Assembly: GCA_018223185.1 (NCBI GenBank)
Contig: JAAEYW010000030.1
Coordinates: 1-61,611, forward strand
Source of the DNA: Oceanospirillales bacterium
Lineage (GTDB): Bacteria > Pseudomonadota > Gammaproteobacteria > Pseudomonadales > Balneatricaceae
Length of the DNA: 61,611 nt
Direction of reading: 5' to 3'
Positions within the stretch are counted from its first letter, which is position 1; every line of letters starts with the position of its first letter. Under the pieces are notes generated by a model that was given only the letters and a program-made list of their open reading frames with translations, had not been told where the DNA came from and ran no database searches. Below are positions 3,342-21,807 of the stretch, piece by piece. A program made the position numbers and the translations under genes.

Positions 3342-3719
3342 CTATTCAGCGTTGCGCATCATCTCAGCCAGCCTGAACACAGGCTCTTTCAACATATCAA
3401 TAATTTCATCGGATGCATTGATATTGACCAATGCCTGATCCATGCAGCCTAACCACTGATCACGCTCGTCCCTGCCGATAGCAAATTTTGCATGCTGGCT
3501 GGACAGACAGACCGTTCCATATTTTTGAAAATAGAGATCCGGCCCGCCCATCCATCCGGATAAGAACATAAACAGTTTTTCGGCAACATCGGCAGTATCT
3601 TTTGCATGCATGGAGCGAATCGTGCTGGCTTCGGGGCGCTGCGACATGACCTGATAAAGCTCATTCGCCAATGCCCTGACACCTGCTTCACCACCCAGTA
3701 GTTCGTATGGAGTAGACAT
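3342..3719 (-). CDS. group II truncated haemoglobin
   Basis: 125 residues, the usual length of a 2-on-2 globin. The proximal His is His76 in SSQHAKFAIG, and Trp89 in DQWLGCM occupies the conserved G8 position of group II (TrHbO) proteins; FLSGWMGGPDLYFQKYG is the family CD/E region. Such proteins bind O2 and NO in the cytoplasm. It starts 11 bases after the MFS gene, so the two are probably cotranscribed. In an oxygenase-rich operon it might supply or buffer O2 or remove NO, which is inference only. Confidence 0.88.
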   Translation of the reverse strand: MSTPYELLGGEAGVRALANELYQVMSQRPEASTIRSMHAKDTADVAEKLFMFLSGWMGGPDLYFQKYGTVCLSSQHAKFAIGRDERDQWLGCMDQALVNINASDEIIDMLKEPVFRLAEMMRNAE

Positions 3720-5060: not shown

Positions 5061-5990
5061 TTAAGGACGGCTTTCCATAATGGCTCTTAAGCCATTTTTC
5101 AGCTGGCTGGACTGTTCCTCAGACAGGGCGATCAGGACTTCAGCCTCATGCTGTTTGGCCAGACAGAGCAATTTATTTGCCAGTGAGGTCCCCTCAGGCA
5201 ACAAACTAAGTGAACCGTCCGCCAGCTCAACCAGCCCCCGGTCCTGCATCCACTCAGCTGTCTGTATCAGTGCAACAGCAGGCTGCATCACTAACGGGGC
5301 CAGATCATCGATTGGCATTGGGCCATGATCACAAAGCATCGCCAGAATACGCCACTCTTCCGGATTGACTCCGCCTTCAGCCTGCAACTTCGGATAGAGA
5401 TCAGAACTGAAGCGATTATAGGATTCTCGCAACATATACAGGAGATAGTCAGAGATAAACTCACCGGACTCATCCTTTACATCATATTTAACGGTCGATG
5501 GATGCTGGCTGGATACCGAGTAACTCCCCCGGGCAAAGACTAATGGCAGATTGCTGTCGTTATAGCGGTAATCGAGCACCTCACCTACCAGTATCAGGTG
5601 ATCACCCCCGTCATAAACGGCCCAGGTTTTGCATTCGAACTGAGCGGAGTAATCGTTCAGCAGCGGGCTGCCGCCCACCCCCTTGCTATAGATAACATCT
5701 TTAAACTTATCTTCACCACGACTGGCAAACCGGTTTGAAACATCAACCTGATTACGACTCAAAACATTTACGGCAAAATGTTCTGAGTTTTCAAAGACCC
5801 CTAAGCTATGTGCCCCCTTATCAATACTCCACAAAATTAAAGGTGGCTCAACGGAGACCGAGTTGAAGCTGCTGGCGGTTACCCCTACCGGCCTGCCCTG
5901 CTCATCATTCGTTGTGATAACCGTTACACCGGTCGGAAATTGCGAAAGCGCACGTCGAAAATCACGCACATCAAAATTTTGCATACTCAT
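5061..5990 (-). CDS. iacG: flavin reductase with C-terminal MarR-like domain (IacG)
   Basis: 309 residues in two parts. Residues 1-165 are a HpaC-type NAD(P)H:flavin oxidoreductase (FPTGVTVITT, GVTASSFNSVSVEPPLI, FAVNVLS). Residues 175-309 look like a winged-helix MarR fold (EWRILAMLCDHG, WMQDRGLVEL). The same architecture is known in C1, the reductase of Acinetobacter p-hydroxyphenylacetate hydroxylase, where the MarR-like part gates activity on substrate binding. It should feed reduced flavin to IacA. The start at 5990 has AGGTGG 5 bases upstream; the open frame extends 3 codons further to a GTG. It is separated from iacF by seven kilobases of transport and catechol genes. Confidence 0.82.
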   Translation of the reverse strand: MSMQNFDVRDFRRALSQFPTGVTVITTNDEQGRPVGVTASSFNSVSVEPPLILWSIDKGAHSLGVFENSEHFAVNVLSRNQVDVSNRFASRGEDKFKDVIYSKGVGGSPLLNDYSAQFECKTWAVYDGGDHLILVGEVLDYRYNDSNLPLVFARGSYSVSSQHPSTVKYDVKDESGEFISDYLLYMLRESYNRFSSDLYPKLQAEGGVNPEEWRILAMLCDHGPMPIDDLAPLVMQPAVALIQTAEWMQDRGLVELADGSLSLLPEGTSLANKLLCLAKQHEAEVLIALSEEQSSQLKNGLRAIMESRP

Positions 5991-6033
5991 ACTTACCACC
6001 TTTTATTTTTTTAGAACGGTTGCACCGGAAAGC

Positions 6034-6402: not shown

Positions 6403-7206
6403 TTAAGTCAGAACGCTGAGAAAACGCTCGTTAAGCACCCGGTCATGATAGAAAATCGCCTTACCCAGATCTTCTGCTTTCCAGGTGACCGGCTCATGAT
6501 CGGGATAGTGATAATCACCACCACAGAACACTTCGTTGCGGTTACCCGACGGGTCGAAGAAGTAGATCGTCTGACCATGGGTCAGGCCGTGACGGGTCGG
6601 GCCAATATCGTGAGCTTTCATGCTGGCCGTCAGAAACGCCGCAACCCGGTTACCTTCCGGATCGATCACCTGCTCTGCCAGATCAAAGCCCAGCACATCG
6701 CGGAACAGCGCATAGGTGGCTTCAACATTCGGACCGTACAGCAGGCAGTGATCAAAGCGGGTGGCTTTCATCCCTTTCAGATCCATCGGCCAGGCTTCAG
6801 GGTTGACGTTGGATACACCCCATTTCCCGGTCTGTTCCTTCTCTGCATAGAGTTCAAAACGATGGCCTGTCGGCACTTCAAAGCGGATACGACGACCACA
6901 GCCTGCCAGTTCACCCGCAGCAATCTGTTCGACTGCACAGCCGTACGCTGTCAGATCGCTCTCCAGCTGCTCCAACACGGTGTTGTTGAGCACTTTAAAG
7001 CCCATAAAATCCATACCCGGCTCATCAGCCTGACGCAGGACAACGGAGAACTTATCAACTTCGGTCCAGCCCTTAAGATAGGCGCGGCCCTGATCGTCGC
7101 GATCCATCTCAATCAGCCCTAAAAGATCCCGGTAATGGGCAACGGCTTCTTCAAGATCGAGAACCCGGATCTGCACATGCCCCGGACGCATTACACCCTT
7201 TTTCAT
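6403..7206 (-). CDS. catechol 2,3-dioxygenase with a 40-residue internal deletion
   Basis: Vicinal-oxygen-chelate extradiol dioxygenase, nearly collinear with Pseudomonas XylE (307 residues) from [11 protein letters not shown] at the N-terminus to the shared end in VLT. Residues 1-200 align without gaps up to KAHD, then the chain jumps to IGPTRHG, the equivalent of XylE 241, giving 267 residues. The missing part (XylE 201-240) carries His214, one of three Fe(II) ligands. The other ligands, His153 (RFDH) and Glu225 (equivalent to Glu265, in NRNEVFCGG), remain, as do the equivalents of His199, His246 and Tyr255. The junction is at 6606/6607 and the frame is kept. Established structure says it should not form the normal iron site; activity is therefore doubtful. 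AGAGG lies 9 bases before the ATG. Confidence 0.9.
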
Positions 7207-7333: not shown

Positions 7334-7825
7334 TTAATGCTCAATCGGTACAATCATCACCGGCCGGTTACTCAGCTGCATCACTGACTGGGCGGTTGAA
7401 CCGATAAAAAAACGTCCTAGCATCGAGTGAGTCCGGGTTCGCGTCCCCATAACAATCAGGTCTGCATCCAGCTCGTCAGCAACCTGAATAATGGTTTCTG
7501 CAGCAGGCCCCTCTTCAATCCGGGCTACCGGATGATTGGCCAGAGACTCACGATCGGAAAGCTCCCGCAGACAAAAATCATCGATACGACTTTCCATCAG
7601 AGCCTTCAGGTTTTCGAAACCCTCAGAACGCATCCCGGCTATCACCTGAGGATTAAGATACCCCTCCAGTAAAGTTGCCGTTGATGTGCTGACAGGCTCT
7701 ACAACATTCAGAAAAATCATATTGGCGTTATGTCTGAAGGCCTCTTTTGCCGCCATATAAAACGCCCTTTTAGAGCCATCACCAAGGTCAGATGCATATA
7801 GAATTGTTTTGATATCAGGGATCAT
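7334..7825 (-). CDS. universal stress protein (UspA family), TRAP-linked
   Basis: 163 residues: Rossmann-like Usp domain beginning IKTILYASDLGDGSKRA and ending in the ATP-loop region MGTRTRTHSMLGRFFIGST and RPVMIVPI. The loop departs from G-x2-G-x9-G-S/T: the second Gly is Thr and the span is two residues longer, so nucleotide binding may be altered. It follows dctM by 79 bases. Usp proteins encoded with TRAP systems are known to tune transport (TeaD with TeaABC in Halomonas), which is the likeliest role here (inference). Confidence 0.85.
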   Translation of the reverse strand: MIPDIKTILYASDLGDGSKRAFYMAAKEAFRHNANMIFLNVVEPVSTSTATLLEGYLNPQVIAGMRSEGFENLKALMESRIDDFCLRELSDRESLANHPVARIEEGPAAETIIQVADELDADLIVMGTRTRTHSMLGRFFIGSTAQSVMQLSNRPVMIVPIEH

Positions 7826-7904: not shown

Positions 7905-9221
7905 TCAACTCACCATCCCCGGCAGAACCAGAGAGATTGCCGGAACCGTTGCGATTAACAGCAGGCGCACAATATCCGCGATCCAGAAAGGCGTGACGCC
8001 CTTGAAAATCGTCGATAATCTGACATCCGGCAGCACCGACTTAAGCACAAATACATTCAGTCCAACCGGCGGCGTTATCAGGCTGATCTCTGTCACGACC
8101 ACAACCAGTATGCCAAACCAGATCAGATCAAAACCCATCGCCTGAACCAGTGGATAGAACACCGGCACCGTCAGCAGAATCATTGACATACTTTCCAGAA
8201 CACACCCAAGGAGAACGTATATCCCGATAATGGCGATAATCACCCACACCGGACTCAGCTCCATTCCAAGCACCGCATCGCGCAGAGAGTCAGGCAGTCC
8301 GGCAAGGTTAATAAAGTTAGAGAACAACACCGCGCCAATCACCAGAAAAAACAGCATTGCAGTAGTACGCACTGTACTGACCAGTGTTTCAACCAGGCGG
8401 TTGAAAGTCAGGCGGCGACGAAACAGAGCAATAAGAAAAGCACCCGATGCGCCGATACCTGCAGCTTCCGTTGGCGTAAAAACACCGCTGTAAATGCCAC
8501 CCATGACAACGAAAAACAGCAAACAGATAGTCCAGACATCCCGGAAAGCCACTAAACGTTCACCCCAGCCTGATCTTTCCCCGGCAGGCCCGGCTTCCGG
8601 CTTGATATACACCGTCACACTGACTGCCGCCATATAGAAGATAATGCCGATCAGTCCTGGCAATAATCCGGCTATAAACAGCAGGCCAATATCCGTTTCA
8701 GTGATCATGCCGTACACCACCAGAATCACACTGGGGGGTATCAGAATTCCCAGCGTACCGCCTGCAGCGATTGAGCCACTGGCCAGGCCATCGGAATATT
8801 TATATTTACGCATTGAGGGCATCGCGACCCTGGACATGGTGGCGGCAGTCGCCATAGAGCTGCCACAGACCGCCGAAAACGCGCCACAGGAGACAACGGT
8901 TGCCAGTGCCAGACCGCCCTTAAAATGGCCGAGAAACGCATTCGATGCGCGATATAACTGAGAGGAAAGACCAGCCTCAGTAATAAAATTCCCCATCAGA
9001 ATAAACAGGGGAACCACCGATAAGCTGTACGATAAACCGGTTTCAAAAGACACCTGAGACACCATGTTTAACGCCGCATCCCAACCCCGTGGATTGCCAT
9101 ATTCCACCTGTTGCACATAGGCAAAACCACAGACACCCACTATGCCCATAGCGTAACCCAGCGGTACACGGGCAAAGATCAGTATCAGTAAGGCGACAAA
9201 GCCGATCAGACTTATTTCCAT
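7905..9221 (-). CDS. dctM: TRAP transporter large permease, DctM/SiaM type
   Basis: 438 residues, about 12 membrane segments, forming the ion-coupled translocation channel of a tripartite ATP-independent periplasmic transporter. Visible family segments include FILMGNFITEAGLS, the GSIAAGGTLGILIPPSVILVVYG loop and LITPPVGLNVFVLKSV near the C-terminus. It starts 4 bases after dctQ ends, within one operon. With DctP and DctQ it probably imports indole-3-acetate or a related aromatic acid, judged only by position inside the iac array. Confidence 0.93.
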   Translation of the reverse strand: MEISLIGFVALLILIFARVPLGYAMGIVGVCGFAYVQQVEYGNPRGWDAALNMVSQVSFETGLSYSLSVVPLFILMGNFITEAGLSSQLYRASNAFLGHFKGGLALATVVSCGAFSAVCGSSMATAATMSRVAMPSMRKYKYSDGLASGSIAAGGTLGILIPPSVILVVYGMITETDIGLLFIAGLLPGLIGIIFYMAAVSVTVYIKPEAGPAGERSGWGERLVAFRDVWTICLLFFVVMGGIYSGVFTPTEAAGIGASGAFLIALFRRRLTFNRLVETLVSTVRTTAMLFFLVIGAVLFSNFINLAGLPDSLRDAVLGMELSPVWVIIAIIGIYVLLGCVLESMSMILLTVPVFYPLVQAMGFDLIWFGILVVVVTEISLITPPVGLNVFVLKSVLPDVRLSTIFKGVTPFWIADIVRLLLIATVPAISLVLPGMVS

Positions 9222-9225
9222 AGGA

Positions 9226-9777
9226 TTACTTCACCTCTTTAACGGCAGCACCGTGATCATGACTGAACAGTTTTTTGCCACGCTTAAAGACCAGCATCAG
9301 CATCAGAGCCCAGGTCGACAATGAACAGCAAATGGCCATCAGAAATACCAGTCCGGCAAAAGGGATCTGTAAAATGGCCGTCGTGTCTTCATATTCGTAG
9401 GTACGAATCGCCAGTTTCCACATCATCCAGGACAGGGTTGCAAAGGCGACAAGGTTAATAACGCATATGACGATATCCTGAAGTGGCTTTAGAAATGCCG
9501 GAATCGTTGAATCCATCAGATCGACATCCACATGGGACCCTTCAGCCGTCACCATCGGCAAGCCAAGAAAGATGAGTGAGGCAAGTAACAGCTCAGTCAC
9601 TTCAAAGCCGCCCGGCAGGGGCGCAGAGAACAGATCCCGCCCGACTACATCCACCAGTGTCACCAGCATCATGGTAAACATGGCCAGCGCAGCGGTGTAG
9701 GCAAGCACCCGTTCAAATAGAAACTCAAACGGGCTGATCCATACCTGAGCCCTGAACAAAGATTTCAAGAAACTCAT
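9226..9777 (-). CDS. dctQ: TRAP transporter small permease, DctQ type
   Basis: 183 residues with four predicted membrane helices (about 28-50, 66-85, 102-125, 145-165). The GREDLF-like segment VDVVGRDLFSAPLPGGFEVTELLLASLIFLGLP is typical of DctQ. It lies between dctP (12 bases) and dctM (4 bases) and completes the membrane part of the transporter. Confidence 0.9.
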   Translation of the reverse strand: MSFLKSLFRAQVWISPFEFLFERVLAYTAALAMFTMMLVTLVDVVGRDLFSAPLPGGFEVTELLLASLIFLGLPMVTAEGSHVDVDLMDSTIPAFLKPLQDIVICVINLVAFATLSWMMWKLAIRTYEYEDTTAILQIPFAGLVFLMAICCSLSTWALMLMLVFKRGKKLFSHDHGAAVKEVK

Positions 9778-9789
9778 AACCGGACTCTG

Positions 9790-10809
9790 TTACTTGTTAA
9801 AACTGACAGTGATCTGACGCAGCTCGGCCAGCGCCGCGGCCCCATCGACACCACGCTGTTCAGCTTCTTTAATCCAGTCCGCCTCAAGGGTTGAAGTACG
9901 CTGCTTTATTGACTCTACAAAGGCGCTATCGGCGGTAGTAATCTCATTACCGTTTTCCTTCATCTTTTTCAGTGCCGCTTTATCAGCAGCATCCCATACA
10001 CGCCCTGCAAGCTGAGAAAATGCTTCGCCGGAAACGCTCATGATGGCATCCTGATCCTGTTGTGACAGGCTGTGAAAACGATCACGGTTCATCACCAGAA
10101 AGAAGCTGATGTTATACAGACCACCGGGAACGATTGTGGTGTGTTTTACAATGTCATCAATTTTAAATGCGCTAACCGATTCCATCGGCAGAAGTGTGCC
10201 ATCGGCAACCCCGTGGGAGAGCAGTTCATAACTTTTGGACGCCGGTTTCAGAAGCGGAACCGCACCCAGTGAGGTGGCAACATCGTTCACAACGCCACCG
10301 CCGACACGTAATTTCATGCCGTCCAGATCCGCCACTGATGAAACCGTTTTCTGACTGTTGTGGATCATGCCGGGGCCATGGGTAAAGACACTGAGAAGCT
10401 GCGTATCCTTGTGCTCATTGGCTTTGGCCAGGTATTTCTGATGCACACGCCAGTAGGCGACAGACAGCGCTTCTGCACTGTTGCCACTAAATGGAAATTC
10501 AACCACCTTGGTCATGACAAAGCGGCCTGGTGTGTAGCCATGAACGCTATAGGTAATATCAGCCAGACCATCCCGGGCAATATCATAATGTATCTTCGGA
10601 TGCCCCAGCCCCTTGGCCAGAATATTGATTTTTACTCTGCCTTCAGTAACCTCTTCAACCTGTTTGGTCCATGGCACAATCATCTGTGACACAACCGGGT
10701 GAGTGGGCGGCAACCACGAAGACAGCGTCAGCGTCGTATCCGCGCTGGCGATGCCATGACTTACCGTTAATACGAACCCTGCAGCAACTGTCTTGAGAAT
10801 CTTTTTCAT
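9790..10809 (-). CDS. dctP: TRAP transporter periplasmic substrate-binding protein, DctP type
   Basis: 339 residues. A signal peptide (MKKILKTVAAGF...GIASA, about 23 residues) is followed by LTLSSWLPPTHPV, the normal start of a mature DctP protein. The ligand-carboxylate region around GMKLRVGGGVVNDVATSLGAVPL contains the conserved Arg of the family. It should bind an organic acid in the periplasm and deliver it to DctQM. A 219-base gap separates it from iacF, longer than elsewhere in the array, so it may have its own promoter. Confidence 0.92.
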   Translation of the reverse strand: MKKILKTVAAGFVLTVSHGIASADTTLTLSSWLPPTHPVVSQMIVPWTKQVEEVTEGRVKINILAKGLGHPKIHYDIARDGLADITYSVHGYTPGRFVMTKVVEFPFSGNSAEALSVAYWRVHQKYLAKANEHKDTQLLSVFTHGPGMIHNSQKTVSSVADLDGMKLRVGGGVVNDVATSLGAVPLLKPASKSYELLSHGVADGTLLPMESVSAFKIDDIVKHTTIVPGGLYNISFFLVMNRDRFHSLSQQDQDAIMSVSGEAFSQLAGRVWDAADKAALKKMKENGNEITTADSAFVESIKQRTSTLEADWIKEAEQRGVDGAAALAELRQITVSFNK

Positions 10810-11028: not shown

Positions 11029-11985
11029 TCAGATATCCAGAACCAGCCTGCCACTTTTCGACCGCGAGCAGCAGAGAATAATCTGGTCGTTATCCTCCCG
11101 CTCCTCTTCGGTCAGAAACTTATCTTTATGGTCGGGCGTCCCTTCCAGCACATCACACAGACATGTGCCACAGACTCCCTGTTCACAGGAGACATCAACG
11201 TTAATACCGGCGGCTTCGAGTGCCTCAACAATGGTCTGATTTTCGCCAACCATGACCGAGATACCACTCTGTTCAGCAACCACCTCAAAAGCGCTGCCAG
11301 AGGTGTCGATATCAGCGTTAAAATATTCAAAATGGATATTATGTTTGTCGTAACCGACGGATTCTGCAGTCGCAATCACCCAGTCCATAAAGCCAGAAGG
11401 GCCGCAGACATAAATATGGGTATTGTCAGCTGCCGGGGCGAATACCCCTTGAGGATCAAAACGCTGATCGTCGCCCCCATCATCAAAATGCAGCTTTACC
11501 CGATCACCGAACTCCGTGGCAAGCTCATCGAGAAACCCGGCACTGCTGCGGGTACGGCAACAATAATGCAGTTCAAATGCTTTGCCGGCAGCCCGCAGTG
11601 TATAAGCCATCGTCAGCATCGGCGTAATACCGATACCGCCCCCCACCAGAATGGTGCGCTCTGCAGACAGGTCCAGAGGAAAGTGGTTGCGGGGTGAACT
11701 TATCTGAATTTCTGTACCCATCTGAAAATTTTGATGGATCGCGACAGAGCCGCCTCGGGACTCAGGGTCATTCAGAATCCCCAGTCGATAGACAGCACTG
11801 TTATCAGGGTCATTACTGAGAGAATACTGACGCACAATGTCGGGTGTTACATGCACGTCAATGTGCGACCCGGCATCAAACGCAGGCAGGTTATGGCCGT
11901 CTTTTGCCATCAGTTCAAAGACCGCCACGGCATCCGCCTGGTCTTCACGCTTACTAATAACAACATTAATCAGCTGTTCGCTCAT
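11029..11985 (-). CDS. iacF: ferredoxin reductase component of the IAA pathway dioxygenase (IacF)
   Basis: 318 residues, phthalate-dioxygenase-reductase architecture. An N-terminal flavin-binding barrel (RQYSLSND, near residue 54) and an NAD-binding domain (LVGGGIGITPM, CGPSGFMDW) precede a C-terminal plant-type [2Fe-2S] domain with cysteines in CEQGVCGTCLC and a final Cys in ILCCSRS. It passes electrons from NAD(P)H to the Rieske oxygenase IacCD. It follows iacE by 74 bases. VanB-type reductases look the same; the operon decides the name. Confidence 0.87.
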   Translation of the reverse strand: MSEQLINVVISKREDQADAVAVFELMAKDGHNLPAFDAGSHIDVHVTPDIVRQYSLSNDPDNSAVYRLGILNDPESRGGSVAIHQNFQMGTEIQISSPRNHFPLDLSAERTILVGGGIGITPMLTMAYTLRAAGKAFELHYCCRTRSSAGFLDELATEFGDRVKLHFDDGGDDQRFDPQGVFAPAADNTHIYVCGPSGFMDWVIATAESVGYDKHNIHFEYFNADIDTSGSAFEVVAEQSGISVMVGENQTIVEALEAAGINVDVSCEQGVCGTCLCDVLEGTPDHKDKFLTEEEREDNDQIILCCSRSKSGRLVLDI

Positions 11986-12059
11986 ACTCTCACCCTTTCA
12001 AAAAATCGTACTGTAGGGCCTGTACGCCAGGCCCGACTCAATGCGCAGGTCTTAACGCC

Positions 12060-12821
12060 TTAGCGCATAAAAATTCCACCGTTTACATCCCAGGTGGCTC
12101 CAGTGACAAAAGAAGCGTCAGGGCTTACCAGTCTGGTCACCATATCCGCAACAAACTCAGCATTGCCCAGGGCTTTAACCGGAATCATCTCGTTTATGAT
12201 TTGCTCCAGACGCTCGGGTGGAACCAGTGCACGTACCGATGGCAGATCAATTGGACCCGGAGCCACCGAATTGACCGTGACACCGGCTTCAGCCAGCTGC
12301 CGGGCAAAGATTTTAGTCATCGTCAGGATGGCCCCTTTACTGGAGGCATAATGCGCTCCGGAGGCAGTGCCGCCATTCTGACCCGCCAGTGACGCCATAT
12401 TAACGATCCGCCCATAACCGTTATCAGCGAAATACTGCCCAAACACCTGACAACCAAAGAAAGTGCCACGCATATTGACACTGACGACCTTGTCAAACTC
12501 CTCAGGGGTAATCTCCATCACGGGTGTGGTAGGTGTCATCGCCGCGTTATTAACCAGTGCATCGACCTTGCCGAAACGGGCAACCGCTGCTTCGAGTACG
12601 TCAGAAAAATCTGTTTTATGCAGTACATCCAGCTTCATCGCCATAACGCGGTTCTGAGTCGCATCGATCTCCAGAGCTGCGTCTTTTGCTCCGCTCTCAT
12701 TGGCATCGGTAATCACAACCGCAAAACCCGCGTCAAACAGGCTCTTAGCAATGGCTTTACCCAGCCCCTGAGCGGCACCGGTGACCAGAGCAACCTGATT
12801 TTTATAAGTGTCCTGAGTCAT
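12060..12821 (-). CDS. iacE: short-chain dehydrogenase/reductase (IacE)
   Basis: 253 residues, classical SDR. The cofactor loop TGAAQGLG is at 14-21, NNA at 91-93 and the catalytic triad at Ser144, Tyr158 and Lys162 (SGAHYASSKG). The C-terminal GATWDVNGGIFMR is typical. In characterised iac pathways this enzyme acts on a hydroxylated or keto indole-acetate intermediate; the exact step cannot be read here. It overlaps nothing and sits 11 bases after iacD. Confidence 0.88.
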   Translation of the reverse strand: MTQDTYKNQVALVTGAAQGLGKAIAKSLFDAGFAVVITDANESGAKDAALEIDATQNRVMAMKLDVLHKTDFSDVLEAAVARFGKVDALVNNAAMTPTTPVMEITPEEFDKVVSVNMRGTFFGCQVFGQYFADNGYGRIVNMASLAGQNGGTASGAHYASSKGAILTMTKIFARQLAEAGVTVNSVAPGPIDLPSVRALVPPERLEQIINEMIPVKALGNAEFVADMVTRLVSPDASFVTGATWDVNGGIFMR

Positions 12822-12832
12822 CTGAGCCCCCT

Positions 12833-13312
12833 TTAAAGGATGTAACCAATGCTGCTCAGATAAGCATCTGAATTCTGTAAACGAATCACCTTTTCTTCGA
12901 TCCGGAAATCGTTATCCGTCTTCATCAGCTTATAGGTGACATCTGCCGGATAACTCTTGAGATTGCCATGACGGCATTCGCTCAGATACATGGCGCAACG
13001 AACGGTGACATGACTATCGCTATCTTCGAGAATACGAAAGCGGGATAATCCACGAACGGTTTTATCGGTTGTCTGGGTCGATACCGCCTCACCACTCAAC
13101 AGACGGTTAACCCGCAGACGCCGCATCTCGGCTTTGTCATAGGCGTAATTAAGAGTATTGGCAAAGTCAGTCTCTTTCGGATCAATCGGTACTACGTACA
13201 CACCGGTGTCACTCCACAGATCCAGCCACGCGTTATACTCTTCAAAATCGAGCATATCGGCTTCGATACTTATAAAAGCGGTTACCTGATTCAGCAAACT
13301 TAAATCGGTCAT
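12833..13312 (-). CDS. iacD: Rieske dioxygenase small (beta) subunit (IacD)
   Basis: 159 residues with the cone-shaped SnoaL/NTF2-like fold of ring-hydroxylating dioxygenase beta subunits. Recognisable segments are AFISIEADMLDFEEYNAWLDLWSDTGVYVVP near the N-terminus and a C-terminal RIEEKVIRLQNSDAYL. It has no metal site and is structural. It follows iacC by 27 bases and partners it in the oxygenase. Confidence 0.88.
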   Translation of the reverse strand: MTDLSLLNQVTAFISIEADMLDFEEYNAWLDLWSDTGVYVVPIDPKETDFANTLNYAYDKAEMRRLRVNRLLSGEAVSTQTTDKTVRGLSRFRILEDSDSHVTVRCAMYLSECRHGNLKSYPADVTYKLMKTDNDFRIEEKVIRLQNSDAYLSSIGYIL

Positions 13313-13339
13313 TTTTATCTCTCCTCTTAATCGGGTAAA

Positions 13340-14617
13340 TCAGGCAGTCATCATCTTTTTCCACTGCTGGTAAGCAGCACGCATTCCGGTCTCAGAGCAC
13401 ACCGCTCCCGATACATTGCCATCCGGACTGGTGGTCAGATGGTTCTGGCCCCGATTAAGCAGAATCCACTCACCGGTTCCCGCCTGAGAGCCTTTCTGTA
13501 CCCGCTCCCATGCCTCAGCATCATCCGGTGTTCCGAACCCCATCGGCCCCTGAAAATGTTCATGCAAACGCAGACGCATCTGATTAAATGCCGCAGGCGC
13601 ACCCTCGCCCCCAAGTGCCACATGGTGAATCTCCGTCTCATTCACAGAGACCGGTGCCAGCACGCGGAAAAACGCCATTGAGCAGGCAACGTTCGGAAAC
13701 AGGTTCAGGTTGAAACCGGAACCGCCGACTGCACGCACCATGCGTCGGACCTCAGCATCGGAATGCCCCTCCGCGGCCAGTTCTTCCGCCAGTGCCTGAA
13801 AGCGTTCCGGAATCGGATCATCAAGGTTTTTATCCAGATCAACCAGTTCGGGAATCATGACCATGACACTGTGACCGTTACCCAGATCCTCTACATGGCC
13901 TTCGCCATCCAGGAAATCGAAAATATCGGCGGTTTGCTCATCAACAGAGGAGACAAATGACTTATGCACGATCGGAAAGTGATAAGCATCGGTGGTGTTT
14001 TCCAGCTGAATTTTCCAGTTACCCGGAAAACGAAAACGATGATCACCAAGCACTTTCAGTGGAAAACCGCCCGACTGTTTAACAAACAGATCGATCCATT
14101 TCTTTGCACCACCGAGAAACGCTTCCAGTGGTTGAATATCGTCATTGAACGTCGCAAAAATCAGTCCCTGATAGGTTTCAAAACGCAGACTTATCAACGG
14201 TAGTTCTGACTTATCAAACACACCTTCATACTCTTCAGGCTTGGGTATTGCCCGCAACGCGCCATCCAGAGAGTATCCCCAGCCGTGGTATGGACACATA
14301 AAGCTTTTGGTTTTGCCCCTTTTGCCTTCACAGACAGTGGCTGCACGATGACGACAACGGTTCAGCAACACATGGATGTTTTTCTTGCGATCACGGCTGA
14401 CAATGACGGAGTGACGGCCGATCATGGCTGTTTTGTACGAGCCTGTCTCAGGCACTTCACTCTCGTGACCCACCCATACCCAGGTGTTGTTAAAAATTTT
14501 ATCCAGCTCTTCTTCAAAGATCTCAGGATCAGAGTAAAGAGAGGTGTGAACTTTATCCGGTCTGACCATACTCTCGTAATCAACCGTTATATTTTTTACA
14601 TCGATCATTTCTGTCAT
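13340..14617 (-). CDS. iacC: Rieske non-haem iron dioxygenase large subunit (IacC)
   Basis: 425 residues. The Rieske [2Fe-2S] cluster ligands are Cys88, His90, Cys108 and His111 (CRH...CPYH). The catalytic mononuclear iron site is seen as Asp210-x2-His213-x4-His218 (DAYHFPIVH). In the IAA route this dioxygenase acts downstream of IacA on the oxidised indole on the way to catechol. The start at 14617 is preferred: GGGGA lies a few bases upstream, while the longer frame begins with an unsupported TTG at 14629. All visible catalytic residues are intact. Confidence 0.9.
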   Translation of the reverse strand: MTEMIDVKNITVDYESMVRPDKVHTSLYSDPEIFEEELDKIFNNTWVWVGHESEVPETGSYKTAMIGRHSVIVSRDRKKNIHVLLNRCRHRAATVCEGKRGKTKSFMCPYHGWGYSLDGALRAIPKPEEYEGVFDKSELPLISLRFETYQGLIFATFNDDIQPLEAFLGGAKKWIDLFVKQSGGFPLKVLGDHRFRFPGNWKIQLENTTDAYHFPIVHKSFVSSVDEQTADIFDFLDGEGHVEDLGNGHSVMVMIPELVDLDKNLDDPIPERFQALAEELAAEGHSDAEVRRMVRAVGGSGFNLNLFPNVACSMAFFRVLAPVSVNETEIHHVALGGEGAPAAFNQMRLRLHEHFQGPMGFGTPDDAEAWERVQKGSQAGTGEWILLNRGQNHLTTSPDGNVSGAVCSETGMRAAYQQWKKMMTA

Positions 14618-14676
14618 GGGATTCCCCAACTATTGTTCTTTTGTTAACTGCTTAATTCTGTAGGCAGAGCCGCTCT

Positions 14677-15198
14677 TTACTCCGGCACGGGCAGATCTGC
14701 AGGCTGGTCCCACGGCGTTGTCACCGGCCGGTTAAATAAGCTTTCAGTCTGAAAGTGACTGATACGCCACTCACCCTGTTCACAGCGAAACCTCACATTC
14801 AGGCGCGCACTGCTCAGCTGTGATCTGCCGCTGCTGAAAGTAGAGGTCTGTAGTAAAACCCAGCCTCCGGTCGCTTCATCGTCCTGCACCTCAATCAACT
14901 CACTGGTGAGAAAATGCACATTGGTTTCAAAATGCGCAGGTGGCAGGGTGTATTTGGTAAACATCGCCTGAATCGCATCAGCGCCAGTATGGCAACCAAA
15001 GGTTTTGCCATAGCGACTGCCGCGACCTTCCCAGACGGCATCGCCGGTAAACAGTCGCATCAGATCGTTCAGCTCAAAGCCCTCATTAAGCTGATCGCAG
15101 AGGTACATATAGCGGTTCATACAACGCCGAATCGCGTGTTCATCCTCAAACGTCTTCAGACGTTTTGATAAAGATGCAACTGTTTCACGGGTAGCCAT
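14677..15198 (-). CDS. iacI: SnoaL-like protein of the IAA cluster (IacI)
   Basis: 173 residues, NTF2/SnoaL-like alpha+beta barrel (RRCMNRYMYLCDQLNEGF near the N-terminus, FRCEQGEWRISHFQTESLF near the C-terminus), similar in fold to dioxygenase beta subunits. The start at 15198 has GGAGA 7 bases upstream and avoids overlap with iacB; the frame stays open 13 codons further. Its position between iacB and iacC matches the characterised order H-A-B-I-C-D-E-F. Its catalytic role is not established from sequence. Confidence 0.78.
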   Translation of the reverse strand: MATRETVASLSKRLKTFEDEHAIRRCMNRYMYLCDQLNEGFELNDLMRLFTGDAVWEGRGSRYGKTFGCHTGADAIQAMFTKYTLPPAHFETNVHFLTSELIEVQDDEATGGWVLLQTSTFSSGRSQLSSARLNVRFRCEQGEWRISHFQTESLFNRPVTTPWDQPADLPVPE

Positions 15199-15220
15199 CA
15201 GATAGTCTCCAGAAACCGGA

Positions 15221-15580
15221 TCAGGCGGGAACGACAAGTTCGCGACCTATACGTGCCTCAACCTTGCAGTATTTCCAGAGTTTGTAAGTGCCATCGCCAA
15301 CCGGTGTTGAGCGGAAAAAATTACAGGCTTCAATAATGGTTTCGAGATCGGGTACATCCGCCATGATATACGCGGTCCAGGGAGCACTGGTCGATGGACC
15401 AACCTGAATACGATCATCGTCCATAATGCCCAGTACGTTGACGCCGGGCAGCTCTGCAATACCCTTCATCATTGCACTGAATGCCTGCCAGACATCACCC
15501 ATTTCACGCTGTGGTGCATCCATAAAGTTCTGATTAACGCCGATACAGAAAAGCACCCGGTGCATAGTGTTTTCGCTCAT
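15221..15580 (-). CDS. iacB: small conserved protein of the IAA cluster (IacB)
   Basis: 119 residues with no recognised catalytic motif. The pattern HRVLFCIGVN, GVNVLGIMDDDRIQVGPS and APWTAYIMADVPDLETIIEACNFFR suggests a small ferredoxin-like alpha/beta (dimeric barrel) fold. It lies 46 bases after iacA and 22 bases before iacI. The name rests on position and size; characterised iac clusters have a protein of unknown function here. Confidence 0.75.
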   Translation of the reverse strand: MSENTMHRVLFCIGVNQNFMDAPQREMGDVWQAFSAMMKGIAELPGVNVLGIMDDDRIQVGPSTSAPWTAYIMADVPDLETIIEACNFFRSTPVGDGTYKLWKYCKVEARIGRELVVPA

Positions 15581-15626
15581 AATGTTCTCCCTCTTATCGT
15601 CTGGAGGTTAAAAGTCGTAATTCGGA

Positions 15627-16775
15627 TCACAGATATCCAGGCAACGGTTTGTGATCAAACAGCATCGCCCCGGCATTTTTGTAGGTAATTGCCCCCATAA
15701 AGGCGTGCTGAGTACACATCATGGAATCACGCATAATGCGGGACAGCGGATGATCGTTATACGCGCCGGTCATGCCAGAAACCTGATAAGCGATACGAAT
15801 CGCTTCAGCACATTCATGGGTCAGATTGGTTGATGCCAGACGGAGCATGCTGACCTGATCAGGTGATGGAATACCGCCCTCCTGAATGGTCTGCCATGCG
15901 CTATTGGTCGCTTCATAAAAGAACGCCCGGGAAGATCGCACTTTAGCCTCAGCTTTTGCGATCTCCATCTGTACATATTCCCGTTCTCCCAGATTCGGAG
16001 CACCGGTAACCGACTTACGGCCCGCCGCCATAGCGAGCACAACATCGATCGCTTCACGTGCCAGACCCAGCGTTGTTACCGACAAAACCTGAGTAGCAAA
16101 AGCCAGTGAGGGGTATTTGAAAAACGGATCATCAAGATTGGGTTTACCGCCCCGGGTAAAGGTCCACTCTTCCGGTACCAGGACATTATCCACGACCAGA
16201 TCATGAGAGCCGGTGCCGACCATGCCAATCACATCCCAGGCCTTTTCAATCGTCAGCATCTCCCTGGGCATAACAGCCATACGGGGGAGTGACTGACCAT
16301 CATCCGGTGCAATACCCACCCCACATACGGATGCTCCCATGCAACCACTGCCAAACTGCCAGCGTCCCTTTACCAGAAAACCACCTTCAACGCGCTTTGC
16401 AGGTTGCGGCGGGAAAATACCTCCGGCAAAGACTACATCGGGGGTTTCAGCCCAGACCTTTTCAATGGTTTCCAGAGGCAGGCAGGCCAGATAAGCCGGA
16501 TTCATTCCAAAGCTGGCCACCCATCCTGCAGAGCCATCGGCAGCGGAAATAGCTTCGACCATCTGCAAAAACTCAGCGGGCGACTTTTCATCTCCACCAA
16601 AACGCTTCGGCACCAAAGCCCGGTAAACACCGATCGACTTAAACCGCTCAATAATGTCCTGGGATATATATTTCTGATCTTCGAATTCCTGGCGACGACT
16701 GCGGATATCTGCCAGCAAAGAATCAAACTCTGCTGCTCCGCCCCAGGTTTCTTTTTTGATGACGTTGGAAGTCAT
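15627..16775 (-). CDS. iacA: indole-3-acetate flavin monooxygenase, acyl-CoA dehydrogenase fold (IacA)
   Basis: 382 residues with the acyl-CoA-dehydrogenase fold of two-component flavin hydroxylases such as HpaH-C2. Features seen are LVPKRFGGDEKSPAEFLQMVEAIS, SAGWVASFGMN (flavin-binding region) and GTGSHDLVVDNVLVPEEWTF. In studied bacteria IacA performs the first oxidation of IAA, using reduced flavin from IacG. It starts 3 bases after iacH, so the two are translationally close. Catalysis as a true acyl-CoA dehydrogenase is unlikely in this context. Confidence 0.88.
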   Translation of the reverse strand: MTSNVIKKETWGGAAEFDSLLADIRSRRQEFEDQKYISQDIIERFKSIGVYRALVPKRFGGDEKSPAEFLQMVEAISAADGSAGWVASFGMNPAYLACLPLETIEKVWAETPDVVFAGGIFPPQPAKRVEGGFLVKGRWQFGSGCMGASVCGVGIAPDDGQSLPRMAVMPREMLTIEKAWDVIGMVGTGSHDLVVDNVLVPEEWTFTRGGKPNLDDPFFKYPSLAFATQVLSVTTLGLAREAIDVVLAMAAGRKSVTGAPNLGEREYVQMEIAKAEAKVRSSRAFFYEATNSAWQTIQEGGIPSPDQVSMLRLASTNLTHECAEAIRIAYQVSGMTGAYNDHPLSRIMRDSMMCTQHAFMGAITYKNAGAMLFDHKPLPGYL

Positions 16776-16778
16776 TAC

Positions 16779-17915
16779 TTAATACTCCACGCTGTTTTTA
16801 TTTTGATTAGGCAGGAACTCGCTCAATAAACGGGCAAGCTCACATAAAATTTCGTCTTCACCTTTACGTCCCACCAGCTGCAGTCCAACCGGACGGTGGT
16901 CCAGGGTTTCAAGCGGTACAGACAGGGCCGGATGACCGGACAGATTGAAAGGACGAACCAGCGAGGAGATACTCAGGTCGGTTTTACCCGCCAGAGCATC
17001 TGCAAGGCTCATCGGAAACGAAGGAAGTGTTGGTAATACAAGAGCGGTGACCTGCTGCAATGCCTGATCTACCTGACGGGTAAACCGTTCACGGACAGCT
17101 TCAGCCTCACTTAGCTGATCGGCTGTAGTACCAGCCGCACTGGCTAAGCGCAATGCAACATCTTCACCGACTTTACCGGTTTCAAGCAGGTGACCACAGG
17201 CATGCCAGGTTTCAGCATTAATCACGGCCATTCCTGCGACAAACGCCTCAGCAAATGCGGGTAAGACCACCGGTGTAATCTCAACATCAGAGCGACTTAA
17301 CAGAGCAGCCAGGGTGTCAGAGATAACAGGGTCAGCATCGACATCCACCCGACCGAGGCGGATATGTTTCAGATGCGGAGTCGTAGCAAATGCAGAATCG
17401 ATAGCCTGCATTGCGGTTATCAGCATATCGGCGGAATCAGCAAGTACGCCAACACAGTCCAGGGTCGTTTCTGCAGGTAAAACCCCCCGACGACTAACCC
17501 GGCCAAACGTTGGCTTCAGGCCATAAACACCACAACAGGCTGCCGGAACCCGGATCGAACCACCCGTATCAGTACCGATTGAGAAATCAGCCTGACCTGC
17601 AGCAACTGCCACGGCAGAGCCACTGGAAGAACCGCCCGGGATCAGATCTGGATAGTGGTAGTTAACCGGTGTTCCAGCCCAGCGATTCACTCCGGTCATT
17701 CCATATGCAAGCTCATGCAGATTGGTTTTACCCACTAACTGGCAACCGGTCTTCAAAACAGCATTAACAACGTCCGCATTCTCTTGCGCTGGGGCAGTAT
17801 CCTTAAGAGCCTGGCATCCGGCTATTGTCGGAAAGCCCTGCACATCAACCGTATCTTTCACTGCCACCCGGTAGCCATCACCACCCTGAGAAATACGCTG
17901 AGAAAAAATAGACAT
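16779..17915 (-). CDS. iacH: amidase-signature hydrolase (IacH)
   Basis: 378 residues, shorter than most amidase-signature enzymes (about 450-500). The Ser-cisSer-Lys triad is visible as Lys20 (RVAVKDT), Ser96 (GGSSSGS) and Ser120 (TDTGGSIRVPA), with the same spacing as in FAAH. It is the first gene of the iac operon. In known iac clusters it is listed as an amidase and is thought to act on an amide-containing intermediate or on IAA conjugates. No strong ribosome site precedes the ATG at 17915. GatA is excluded by length and by the absence of GatB/GatC. Confidence 0.85.
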   Translation of the reverse strand: MSIFSQRISQGGDGYRVAVKDTVDVQGFPTIAGCQALKDTAPAQENADVVNAVLKTGCQLVGKTNLHELAYGMTGVNRWAGTPVNYHYPDLIPGGSSSGSAVAVAAGQADFSIGTDTGGSIRVPAACCGVYGLKPTFGRVSRRGVLPAETTLDCVGVLADSADMLITAMQAIDSAFATTPHLKHIRLGRVDVDADPVISDTLAALLSRSDVEITPVVLPAFAEAFVAGMAVINAETWHACGHLLETGKVGEDVALRLASAAGTTADQLSEAEAVRERFTRQVDQALQQVTALVLPTLPSFPMSLADALAGKTDLSISSLVRPFNLSGHPALSVPLETLDHRPVGLQLVGRKGEDEILCELARLLSEFLPNQNKNSVEY

Positions 17916-17980
17916 AGTTCAGCTACTCACATAATTCTTATTTTAATTATTCATCGCTCTCCCGAAGGAGGTCACGATCA

Positions 17981-17994
17981 TTGATATAAATCAA
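17981..17994. promoter_or_regulatory. perfect FNR/ANR box at the iac operon start
   Basis: TTGATATAAATCAA matches the FNR consensus TTGAT-N4-ATCAA at every defined base. It begins 3 bases downstream of the predicted iac -10 element, so a bound FNR/ANR would cover the transcription start and most likely repress under low oxygen. That fits a pathway whose first steps consume O2. The function is inferred. Confidence 0.6.
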
Positions 17995-17996
17995 GA

Positions 17997-18022
17997 ATTA
18001 TACATTTCACTTGAAGTGTCAA
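17997..18022 (-). promoter_or_regulatory. predicted iacH operon promoter
   Basis: On the minus strand TTGACA (18022-18017) and TATAAT (18002-17997) are both perfect sigma-70 hexamers but separated by only 14 bases instead of about 17. A weak TAGTTG gives the 17-base spacing. Poor spacing suggests low basal activity or help from a regulator. Downstream of it, before the iacH ATG, lies about 80 bases of leader. The remaining sequence of this gap (18037-18227) is A+T rich without further recognised signals. Confidence 0.55.
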
Positions 18023-18036
18023 CTAAATTTAGTTGA
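18008..18036. promoter_or_regulatory. overlapping palindromes, probable IacR operator
   Basis: Perfect 18-bp palindrome TCAACTAAATTTAGTTGA (18019-18036) directly abuts the inverted repeat CACTTGAAGTG (18008-18018), and TTGA-AGTG-TCAA spans the join. They overlap the -35 hexamer and spacer of the iacH promoter, where a MarR-family repressor would be expected to bind. Confidence 0.55.
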
Positions 18037-18227
18037 AACTTCATCTATATTTCAGCGTAATAATCGACAGAAACACTACAAAGAATCAACAGAAAAACAT
18101 TACAAAACAATAATATACAGATAACAAAAACAGACAATTCGATGAGAAAAAGCACATAAAAAACAAAATAATTAAAAAATTATTCATGCACTCATACTGA
18201 TAAATCAAAGAATACAAATACAAGAAA

Positions 18228-18255
18228 GCCCTCACTCAGAACGCTGAATGAGGGC
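18228..18255 (-). terminator. terminator after iacR
   Basis: A 12-bp stem GCCCTCACTCAG / CTGAATGAGGGC. Its single mismatch becomes a G-U pair in the minus-strand RNA, which then continues TTTCTTGTATTTG. It starts about 23 bases past the iacR stop and separates iacR from the iac operon. Confidence 0.6.
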
Positions 18256-18278
18256 CTTATTCTTTGAGGTTGAAAAAT

Positions 18279-18758
18279 TTAATCAGCAGACAGATTGGTA
18301 AAATAGCGCTTCAGCAACTCGGTAGATTTCTTAATCTGGGGCTCGGTAAATCCCTGAAAAGCCTTCGCAAAAACCTTTTTTTCAGTCGTTTTAAAGACCA
18401 TTTTAACTTTGTCATGGCCCTCTTCAGTAAGTGAAACGACAGTGACACGACCATCTGTTTCTGAGGCATTCACCTCAACCAGACCCGCATCCCGCATCCG
18501 ATATACGATTTTCGTTATCGTCGGCAACTTACCGATTGCATGCTCTGCAATATCGGAAATACTCAATGGTCCGTAGACCCTCAGCATGACAGCAACCCGC
18601 CATCGGGCGATATCCATCCCCACCGGTTTCAGAGTCTTCTCCATCTCTTGCGAATACAGTGCGTTTACACGCGCTATCCAGTAAAAAGGGAACTCATTAA
18701 TATCAAAAAACTGACTGGATGGACTGTATTTTTCCAGTTTTGAAGAGTGAAAAACCAT
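18279..18758 (-). CDS. iacR: MarR-family transcriptional regulator (IacR)
   Basis: 159 residues. The winged helix is centred on LSISDIAEHAIGKLPTITKIVYRMRDAGLVEV (about 75-107), followed by the wing TDGRVTVVSLTEEG. IacR proteins repress iac genes and are released by IAA or a pathway intermediate. GAGG lies 5 bases before the ATG. It is in the same direction as the iac operon, with a terminator and about 360 bases between them, so it is a separate transcript. Confidence 0.85.
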   Translation of the reverse strand: MVFHSSKLEKYSPSSQFFDINEFPFYWIARVNALYSQEMEKTLKPVGMDIARWRVAVMLRVYGPLSISDIAEHAIGKLPTITKIVYRMRDAGLVEVNASETDGRVTVVSLTEEGHDKVKMVFKTTEKKVFAKAFQGFTEPQIKKSTELLKRYFTNLSAD

Positions 18759-19040: not shown

Positions 19041-20138
19041 TTAACGCTGGTCGAAGTCAACCACAACGGTGTCTGAGATCGGGTGCGCCTGGCAACTGAG
19101 AATGTAGCCCGCTTCAACTTCATGGGGTTCCAGACCGTGGGAGATATCCATATCCACCTCCCCTTCGACCAGCTTACATTTACAGGTAGAGCAAACCCCT
19201 GCTTTACAGGAGTACGGCAGGTCCAGGCCATTATGCATACCGGCATCAAGAATGTTTTCCCCGACTGTCGCCAGATCAAACATTACCGCCCGGCCATCGG
19301 CACGCACTGTGACTTTGGACATTTTCTCTTCGCCGAACTGCTCCTTACGTTTAGCTGCTTTTTCCAGCATCTCTTTCGAGTCTGCAGAGGAGTTGGCAAA
19401 CAACTCGTAATGAATCTGCGCATCCGTCAGCCCTTCCATACGGAAGCCCCGGGAAACCTCTGACATCATCGCTTCCGGGCCGCAGATAAAGGCTTCATCC
19501 ACCGCTTTGATATTAATCAGACCGGCTTTTTGCAGCGCATAGCCTTTTGCGTTATCGATCCGGCCATTCAGCAGGTCAGCGCCCTGATCTTCGTAGTCCA
19601 TAATATTGATCCACTGAAAGCGGTTCATATAACGGTTTTTAACGAAGTTCAGTTCATCTTTAAACATCACCGAGTTACTGCGGCGGTTACCATAGATCAG
19701 GGTAACCTCAGAGCCCGGTTCAGTATCGAGTACCGATTTCATAATAGAGATCATCGGCGTAATACCGGAGCCCACCGCGATACACATATAGTTCTTGCTG
19801 TTTTCGGGGTTCAGCTCGGTATAAAAGCTACCCTGTGGCGGCATAACTTCAATCGACATACCCGGCTTGAAGGTATCGTTAGCATAGTTTGAGAACTTAC
19901 CGTTCTTAACCCGCTTAATTCCCACCCGCATATGGCCATCGTTCACGCCGGAGCAGATCGAATAGGAACGACGAACATCTTCTCCATCGATAGTGGCACG
20001 CAGGGTCAGAAACTGCCCCTGGATAAAGCGGAATCTCTCTTTCAGATCTTCCGGTACAGCAAAGCTTACGCAGATCGCAGTTTCGGTTTCCGGCTGAACA
20101 TCAGCGATTTTCAGCGTGTAAAAATTGGTGTCAGACAT
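19041..20138 (-). CDS. paaE: phenylacetyl-CoA epoxidase reductase subunit PaaE
   Basis: 365 residues, the family's usual size. An FAD/NAD(P) ferredoxin-reductase module (RRSYSICSGVND, CIAVGSGITPMISIMKS, FICGPEAMM) is followed by a C-terminal [2Fe-2S] ferredoxin domain with cysteines in CKAGVCSTCKC and LSCQAHP. It moves electrons from NADPH to the di-iron PaaA subunit of the PaaABCE complex. Last gene of the operon, 37 bases after paaD. Confidence 0.95.
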   Translation of the reverse strand: MSDTNFYTLKIADVQPETETAICVSFAVPEDLKERFRFIQGQFLTLRATIDGEDVRRSYSICSGVNDGHMRVGIKRVKNGKFSNYANDTFKPGMSIEVMPPQGSFYTELNPENSKNYMCIAVGSGITPMISIMKSVLDTEPGSEVTLIYGNRRSNSVMFKDELNFVKNRYMNRFQWINIMDYEDQGADLLNGRIDNAKGYALQKAGLINIKAVDEAFICGPEAMMSEVSRGFRMEGLTDAQIHYELFANSSADSKEMLEKAAKRKEQFGEEKMSKVTVRADGRAVMFDLATVGENILDAGMHNGLDLPYSCKAGVCSTCKCKLVEGEVDMDISHGLEPHEVEAGYILSCQAHPISDTVVVDFDQR

Positions 20139-20175
20139 GCTTCACCTTTTGTTTTTATTCAGAACTGATGTGTCA

Positions 20176-20715
20176 TCAGATCTTTTTGAAATAATCGAAC
20201 GGCTCACCGCAGTCATCACACTGAAACAGTGCTTTACAGGCAGTTGAACCAAACTCACTGACTCTTCGGGTATTACGCGAACTGCAATGGGGACACGCCG
20301 CATGGGCATCAGGGGTCAGACCGTCCTCATCCAGCTCGGCATCCTCCGGTGGCGCAATGCCATACTCACGCAGCTTTTTGCGCCCCTCTGCTGACATCCA
20401 TTCGGAACTCCAGGCAGGCGACAGAACCAGTTTTACAGTCACATCGGAGTAGCCATTTGCATTCAGCAGAGAGACTACATCGGTGCTGATATTGTCCATC
20501 GCCGGACACCCGGAATAGGTGGGTGTAATCGTCACGACCACCTGTTCTTTATGACGCTGAATATCCCGCAGAATACCCAGATCCCAGATACTCAGTGCCG
20601 GAACTTCGGGGTCTTTAACGGCATCAAGCAGATCCCAGAGTTCTCTGACATCTGCAGCGCTGCGCTGTTGCAGGCGCTGATATTGCTCTTCCGGCATCAG
20701 TGAGATCTCGTTCAT
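20176..20715 (-). CDS. paaD: PaaD, MIP18-like factor for phenylacetyl-CoA epoxidase
   Basis: 179 residues. The N-terminal DUF59/MIP18-like domain (LLDAVKDPEVPALSIWDLGI, TPTYSGCPAMDNI) resembles Fe-S assembly factors. The C-terminal zinc-ribbon has two Cys pairs (CPHCSSRNTRR and CDDCGEPF). PaaD is needed for a working epoxidase but is not part of the purified core complex. It lies 6 bases after paaC. Confidence 0.94.
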   Translation of the reverse strand: MNEISLMPEEQYQRLQQRSAADVRELWDLLDAVKDPEVPALSIWDLGILRDIQRHKEQVVVTITPTYSGCPAMDNISTDVVSLLNANGYSDVTVKLVLSPAWSSEWMSAEGRKKLREYGIAPPEDAELDEDGLTPDAHAACPHCSSRNTRRVSEFGSTACKALFQCDDCGEPFDYFKKI

Positions 20716-20721
20716 AGCCAG

Positions 20722-21486
20722 TTACCACTTACAGCCTGGATGTGAACGGTGCACAATTTGCATTTCTGTCAGCATATGGCCCAGATTCTCAGTGTGATAA
20801 CCAACCCGGCCACCACGAACCGCCCAGCTGTCTTCCGGCACCGTCAATGTCGCTTCAGTGAGAATGTCACTGACCATCTTCAGCCAGCTATCCCGCAGTC
20901 TGGAAACATCCACACCGATACCGGCATCGGCCAGCAACTGCTCAGTCTCATCCATATCGAACAGTTCATGGGTATAGCCCCACAACTGATCCAGCGCTTT
21001 CTGAGTACGTTTATGGCTCTCTTCAGTGCCATCACCAAGACGTAACACCCAGTCACGGCTACGGCGCAGATGATATTTAGTCTCTTTTATCGCTTTTGCC
21101 GCGATAGCAGAGAGGGTTTCATCTTTTGACTGCAACAACTCTGGCAGCATCAGGGTGTAGTAGACATCGGCAAACAGCTGACGCACCTGAGAGTAGGCAA
21201 AGTCACCCTTCGGCAGCTCCATCAGCAACAGATTGCGATATTCACGGTCGTTGCGCATATAGGCAAAATCGTCTTCATCACGGCCATCATCTGCCAGCTC
21301 AGCAGCATAGGTGTAGAACATGCGGGCCCGACCGATGTAATCCAGGGAGACGTTACCGTAGGCGATATCTTCTTCCAGAAACGGCCCGTAACTGACCCAC
21401 TCAGAGATCCGGTGTCCCAGTACTACGGAATCATCACCCAGCCGGGTTGCGTATTCCTGTATCGCTTGTTTAATCTGATCACTCAT
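20722..21486 (-). CDS. paaC: phenylacetyl-CoA epoxidase structural subunit PaaC
   Basis: 254 residues, ferritin-like helical bundle without a complete di-iron site; it dimerises with PaaA. Recognisable segments are LGHRISEWVSYGPFLEEDIAYGNVSLDYIGRARMFY, near the N-terminus, and RVGYHTENLGHMLTEMQ near the C-terminus. It sits 15 bases after paaB. Confidence 0.95.
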   Translation of the reverse strand: MSDQIKQAIQEYATRLGDDSVVLGHRISEWVSYGPFLEEDIAYGNVSLDYIGRARMFYTYAAELADDGRDEDDFAYMRNDREYRNLLLMELPKGDFAYSQVRQLFADVYYTLMLPELLQSKDETLSAIAAKAIKETKYHLRRSRDWVLRLGDGTEESHKRTQKALDQLWGYTHELFDMDETEQLLADAGIGVDVSRLRDSWLKMVSDILTEATLTVPEDSWAVRGGRVGYHTENLGHMLTEMQIVHRSHPGCKW

Positions 21487-21501
21487 TCTCGACTCTCCCG
21501 A

Positions 21502-21795
21502 TCACATGTTATTTACTGGGTCAGGCAGAACGTAGTAAGTCGCATGACGGTAAGGTTTGTCATCGCTCGGGTCGTAGAAGCAATCTGCATCATCTTCCTG
21601 GGACGCGCAGATATCACTGGATTTGACCACCCAGATGCTCACTCCTTCACTGCGACGGGTATAACAGTCGCGGGCATACTCCAGCGCCTGTTCATGATCT
21701 TCCGCATGCAGGCTGCCAACGTGTTTATGATCCAGACCACGTTTGGAACGCACAAACACTTCAAACAGTTCCAGTTTTTCAGTAATGGTTGTCAT
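21502..21795 (-). CDS. paaB: phenylacetyl-CoA epoxidase subunit PaaB
   Basis: 97 residues, matching the small PaaB subunit that bridges PaaAC heterodimers. FEVFVRSKRGLDHKHVGSLHA and YTRRSEGVSIWVVKSSDI are the conserved blocks. It lies 12 bases after paaA. Confidence 0.95.
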   Translation of the reverse strand: MTTITEKLELFEVFVRSKRGLDHKHVGSLHAEDHEQALEYARDCYTRRSEGVSIWVVKSSDICASQEDDADCFYDPSDDKPYRHATYYVLPDPVNNM

Positions 21796-21807
21796 CTCAG
21801 TTACCCC

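Follow-up and report, generated by a model that had tools for sequence, protein, structure and literature searches.

An internally deleted catechol 2,3-dioxygenase gene beside an iac cluster of an Amphritea-type bacterium, and its probable gene conversion with a meta-operon copy

The DNA analysed here, called the window, is a stretch of 61,611 nucleotides on contig C27 of an Amphritea-type genome (G000; 4.6 Mb, 43 contigs). It carries a gene for a catechol 2,3-dioxygenase (C23O) between those of a flavin reductase and a universal stress protein, followed by a three-gene transporter, which we take to be TRAP-type, and by genes resembling iacF, iacE, iacD, iacC, iacI, iacB and iacA (Table 1). 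Pfam domains and gene order identify an iac cluster with the set iacA-B-I-C-D-E-F accompanied by G, H and R, although the iacB-like gene gave no Pfam domain match. The assignment compares domains and order with the description in the accessible part of PMC11373566. According to the accessible parts of PMC6624763 and PMC11373566, Iac enzymes convert indole-acetate into catechol. A paa-type (phenylacetate) set adjoins the iac cluster at 19041-25463, with two PaaA_PaaC domains, a PaaD zinc ribbon, a reductase, an AMP-binding ligase and a thiolase, and a bacterial-globin gene (PF01152) at 3342-3719 lies inside the iac/C23O region, a place that it keeps in the relatives G008, G009 and G016.

Table 1. 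Coordinates of the features discussed, in window positions
Feature	Position	Strand	Basis or remark
Flavin reductase, IacG-like	5061..5999	-	PF01613 and synteny; iac name inferred
C23O gene, iac-linked, internally deleted	6403..7206	-	267 aa; protein P0001
3′ coding end not common with C23	6406..6457	-	79% to C23
Putative gene-conversion tract	6458..7179	-	99-100% per segment to the C23 meta-operon copy
Deletion junction	6603..6610	-	Ambiguous over this span owing to a short repeat
Universal stress protein	7334..7825	-	PF00582
Three-gene transporter (large, small and binding subunits)	7905..10809	-	ORFs and synteny in relatives
iacF, iacE, iacD, iacC, iacI, iacB and iacA-like genes	11029..16775	-	Pfam domains for six of seven
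Amidase (iacH-like) and MarR regulator (iacR-like)	16779..18758	-	PF01425, PF01047; iac names inferred

The C23O gene is an open reading frame with an ATG start and no internal stops. Its product, P0001, scores 354.8 bits against the NCBIfam model TIGR03211, above the curated cut-off of 320.2, and is matched in two stretches. Alignment by phmmer to XylE (1mpy, 307 aa) is likewise divided, with query residues 1-206 placed on chain residues 1-206 and query residues 188-267 on 228-307; the true, gapless agreement covers residues 1-200 and residues 201-267, the latter equivalent to XylE 241-307. The two proteins are of the same family and alignable over all 267 residues of P0001, but XylE possesses residues 201-240, His214 included, and P0001 is short of exactly these 40. 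Against the intact sibling gene of the same genome, on contig C23, the difference is a single clean in-frame gap of 120 nt. An earlier note on this DNA had described a gapless alignment to XylE on either side of 40 missing residues and a clean in-frame loss of an iron ligand; the alignment is confirmed by phmmer and by the gap against the sibling, and the loss is borne out at the level of the assembled sequence.

The iron ligands of C23O are His153, His214 and Glu265 (PMC4664950, accessible part). P0001 retains His153 and Glu225 (equivalent to Glu265), as well as His199, His206 (246 in XylE numbering) and Tyr215 (255), but not His214, which leaves the iron triad incomplete and, with residues 201-240 gone, the catalytic C-terminal domain as well. 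In the best 80 of 174 relatives (80 named loci), His153, His199, His214, His246, Tyr255 and Glu265 are invariant; some gap within residues 201-240 occurs in two of these loci, both of which have His214. Judged from its sequence, P0001 is a member of the TIGR03211 family by descent that, as an enzyme, apparently fails at the iron triad. Some caution is called for here, since the family model still names the protein a C23O despite the missing iron ligand.

Structures were predicted with AlphaFold2 from 34 sequences each for P0001 and for the intact orthologue of A. atlantica as a control. The P0001 model has a mean pLDDT of 62.0, with values under 50 at residues 126-151, 196-242 and 246-267; its N-terminal part is fairly confident, with 10-residue means of 63-94 over residues 11-120. 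The best control model reached 79.8 and the other four 56.7-64.3, and only this best control model is clearly better than that of P0001, which makes the control a modest one. In it, the part missing from P0001 forms strands at 201-205 and 211-218 and a helix at 222-233, and one of the two predicted strands bears His214. From the loss of this residue and from the models, P0001 would most likely be a dead enzyme.

Other copies of C23O are present in the genome. Contig C23 carries an intact gene (L009:11006-11929) for a 307-aa enzyme whose residues 1-200 are identical to those of P0001 but which is full length and lies in a meta-pathway operon; BLAST aligns the DNA of the two genes at 98.4% identity over a segment of 631 bases, 27 of them upstream of the start codon. 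A full-length C23O on contig C33 has 75% identity to P0001 over residues 1-202, and a more distant full-length one on contig C2 has 53% over residues 3-206. Against TIGR03211, the C23 gene reaches 439.6 bits and the C33 gene 422.8, each above the same cut-off, and both genes are found in operons with a 2-hydroxymuconic semialdehyde dehydrogenase gene and other meta genes. Around the C23 gene, that dehydrogenase, 2-oxopent-4-enoate hydratase, 2-oxo-3-hexenedioate decarboxylase, 4-hydroxy-2-oxovalerate aldolase and acetaldehyde dehydrogenase each exceed their NCBIfam cut-offs. A second C23O, for which the earlier note had proposed a search together with catA, is thus present, and catA was not found: a search of G000 for intradiol dioxygenases (PF00775) gave no match, the same search being positive in 4 of 14 control genomes. 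The note had also held that catechol from indole-acetate would be left without meta cleavage. This stands for the window locus only, since meta cleavage should persist in the cell given the full-length genes on C23, C33 and C2; a cell-wide loss was rejected on account of these copies, the last of them distant.

In the intact C23 copy, the motif GATATTG (6603-6609 in the window) occurs at either end of the 120 nt that are missing here, and the junction given in the earlier note (6606/6607) falls inside the span made ambiguous by this repeat. GATATTG is the longest period-120 repeat in the C23 gene and lies exactly at the junction. Direct repeats of 7-9 bp spaced 20-300 apart are not rare in that gene, however: it has 21 of them, GATATTG included, and some are longer. 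The junction site was also compared in 16 other intact genes, where the repeat comprises 2-5 bp. Two bases next to the junction, at coding positions 594 and 597, are not shared with C23 and agree with the iac and meta alleles of G009; position 597 is ambiguously aligned and perhaps belongs to the right side of the junction. The repeat at the junction site of the G009 alleles is CGAT only (4 bp), and because positions 594 and 597 match these alleles, the 7-bp repeat may have been missing from the template.

Of 293 genomes of the order, its own included, 22 gave matches (E up to 1e-12) to a 39-residue peptide across the junction, at 35 places in all. Only the window match covers the peptide over its whole length; the other 34 alignments start at residues 6-9, that is, at the junction. 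Among the matches in 36 relatives, in 16 other genomes of the genus and in 292 other genomes drawn from the order, three sets that overlap, none carries the query unbroken over the junction, and the observation is therefore judged to exceed chance. A truncated subfamily shared among relatives was considered and rejected, both because none of the 80 named loci (the best 80 of 174 relatives) has the form and because no uninterrupted junction match was found in these three overlapping sets.

Over coding positions 1-869, outside the gap, the window gene and its C23 counterpart differ at 5 positions (6 counting the ambiguous position 597), and all six differences of this body are at third positions. 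The longest exact block measures 530 bases (6614-7143, or coding positions 64-593) and stops 4 bases short of the repeat at 598. Over coding positions 870-921 the two genes differ at 11 of 52 positions. The 3′ end of the window copy is nearest to the iac copy of G009 (4 differences), then to the meta copy of G011 and the iac copy of G016 (5 each); its identity is 92% to the G009 iac orthologue and 91% to that of G016. The C23 3′ end is nearest to that of C33, with 1 difference in 53 against 11 to the window copy. It was also observed that over its final 53 coding bases (L009:11873-11926) the C23 gene is 98% identical to C33 (L010), compared with about 75% for most of the body; by this pattern of identity, the C23/C33 3′ end is a second, putative conversion tract.

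The longest run common to the window and C23 genes extends over 188 of 266 variable sites, a length that none of 10,000 permutations reached. In the other genomes, the corresponding test gives 148 of 10,000 for G009, a weak result, 934 for G016, which is not significant, and 8,167 for G008, which shows no signal, and a between-genome control pair, the iac copies of G009 and G016, also came out low (462 of 10,000). In a tree of the gene body, the iac and meta copies of the same genome pair with each other in G000 (support 100/100), G009 (100/99; L042 and L043) and G016 (100/99; L040 and L041) but not in G008, that is, in three of the four genomes with both copies; the case for conversion in G009 and G016 is drawn from this tree. 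Seven neighbouring genes at the iac locus have 76-91% DNA identity between G000 and G008, G009 or G016. In these three of four genomes the gene body clusters by genome, and the neighbours go by locus, a feature of interlocus gene conversion. The 3′ end of the window copy, being nearest to an iac gene, also follows its locus, with the tie noted above between the G011 meta and G016 iac copies. Statistically, then, most of the window gene is shown to have been homogenised with the C23 copy, as far as sequence comparison can tell by gene conversion. Conversion among Amphritea C23O copies seems to be recurrent and the window copy seems to be a mosaic.

Among the titles and beginnings of abstracts listed, nothing was found on gene conversion or concerted evolution of catechol dioxygenases, nor, in those on Amphritea with catechol or auxin, on conversion of C23O; this does not prove the matter unpublished, and it may be in print elsewhere. 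A broader proposal, which we hold improbable, is that the Amphritea C23O genes homogenise one another as a set, with lesions as well as repairs travelling between the auxin-catabolic locus and the meta operons. If it were true, the deleted iac copy would be a lesion flanked by conversion and yet unrepaired by it, and the use of indole-acetate would depend on a distant operon.

The surroundings of C23O were compared in seven relatives (G004, G008, G009, G010, G011, G016 or A. atlantica DSM 18887, and G023 or Pontibacterium sinense), a comparison that left out other matched genomes such as G007, G013, G015, G020, G022 and G026. The five relatives in which a C23O was found in the iac place (G008, G009, G010, G016 and G023) all have it at full length. 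The place itself varies: in G023, meta genes stand between C23O and the flavin reductase gene, and in G010 (L049, 814-3055) iacA is directly followed by iacF, with no match for iacB, I, C, D and E in the stretch compared. In L047 (Pontibacterium sinense), L061 and L064, the transporter, the stress protein and C23O are directly followed by meta-pathway genes, which joins the iac-side region to the meta pathway at these loci. As a separate observation, the meta-type C23O genes of L041 (G016), L045 (G008) and L055 (A. pacifica) have no adjoining matches for the semialdehyde dehydrogenase or the hydratase, and in L041 only pieces of a decarboxylase gene and of a ferredoxin gene match.

Taken together, the window gene is probably a loss-of-function allele of the iac-linked C23O that arose by deletion at the short direct repeat. 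The 120 nt would have been lost in one event, either by slipped-strand mispairing or by annealing at the repeat. In the predicted intact fold, the removed residues 201-240 would amount to two strands and one helix within the catalytic C-terminal domain, and P0001 would neither hold iron properly nor cleave catechol. The lesion would be tolerated because the intact C23 and C33 copies cleave the catechol delivered by the Iac enzymes. Points that count against this reading are the other direct repeats of the C23 gene, the doubt whether the template had the 7-bp repeat, and the score of P0001, which still clears the TIGR03211 threshold. That the deletion is real, whether recent or older, is held with somewhat firmer confidence. 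The recent loss put forward in the earlier note is likely, in view of the identity of residues 1-200 to the paralogue and the six third-position differences; however, later conversion could mimic this appearance.

The foremost alternative, which we regard as unlikely but serious, is an assembly error: the real gene would be full length, and 120 bp would have been dropped while the near-identical C27 and C23 copies were being resolved or a gap was being closed on a short overlap. The C23O family is hard to assemble, the genome being in 43 contigs and C33 stopping within a gene that shares 96% identity over 50 residues with the corresponding gene of C23. It is in keeping with such an error that C33, from the same assembly, breaks off in a paralogous operon, that the 530-base exact block common to C27 and C23 ends beside the junction, and that the junction sits on a short repeat usable by an overlap-based gap closer. 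However, no orphan copy of the missing DNA was found among the contigs searched: a 134-nt query matched C23 (100%) and C33 (82%, 111 nt), and the next matches were short, the best being of 25 nt on C9 (E 0.0034). The window sequence holds no N, and coding positions 594 and 597 carry bases other than those of C23, so that a simple join within C23 sequence does not account for the junction. An error would keep the frame in 1 of 3 cases, a slight point.

Much less probable is a deletion older than the conversion, whereby a dead iac copy would have been overwritten on both sides by C23 sequence with the lesion skipped. Two of the six body differences (594 and 597) lie at the junction, a placement for which a simulation gave P ~0.003 with a test chosen post hoc, and both carry the bases of the G009 iac and meta alleles; position 597, being ambiguous, may belong to the right of the junction. 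An age-by-decay test of the window gene revealed no further mark of decay: the frame has no stop, and each of the 6 body differences is at a third position. A new job for P0001, for instance in mixed oligomers with the intact enzyme, is very improbable. In its favour, the frame and start region are kept, residues 1-200 are identical to the C23 enzyme and the N-terminal part is predicted fairly well; against it, the form is absent from every relative examined, the model gives no confidence over the greater part of the catalytic half, and the changed function mentioned in the earlier note found no positive evidence.

A loss-of-function allele in a redundant, gene-converting family is ordinary in kind. 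The wider points are the gene conversion itself, whose recurrence would link C23O copies of different pathways, and the tie of an iac cluster to meta rather than ortho cleavage. As far as the accessible part of the literature describes them, the iac clusters of Pseudomonas putida 1290 and Marinomonas sp. NFXS50 have the same kind of gene set as the window, and the order A-B-I-C-D-E-F is that of Marinomonas (PMC11373566). PF00775 had no match in the five relatives with an iac-linked C23O, as in G000; G011, whose two C23O genes both lie away from iac genes, does have a match. For the Pseudomonas and Marinomonas clusters, according to the accessible parts of PMC6624763 and PMC11373566, catechol is tied to cat genes and the beta-ketoadipate (ortho) route, whereas the iac clusters with a linked C23O described here appear to feed meta rather than ortho cleavage.
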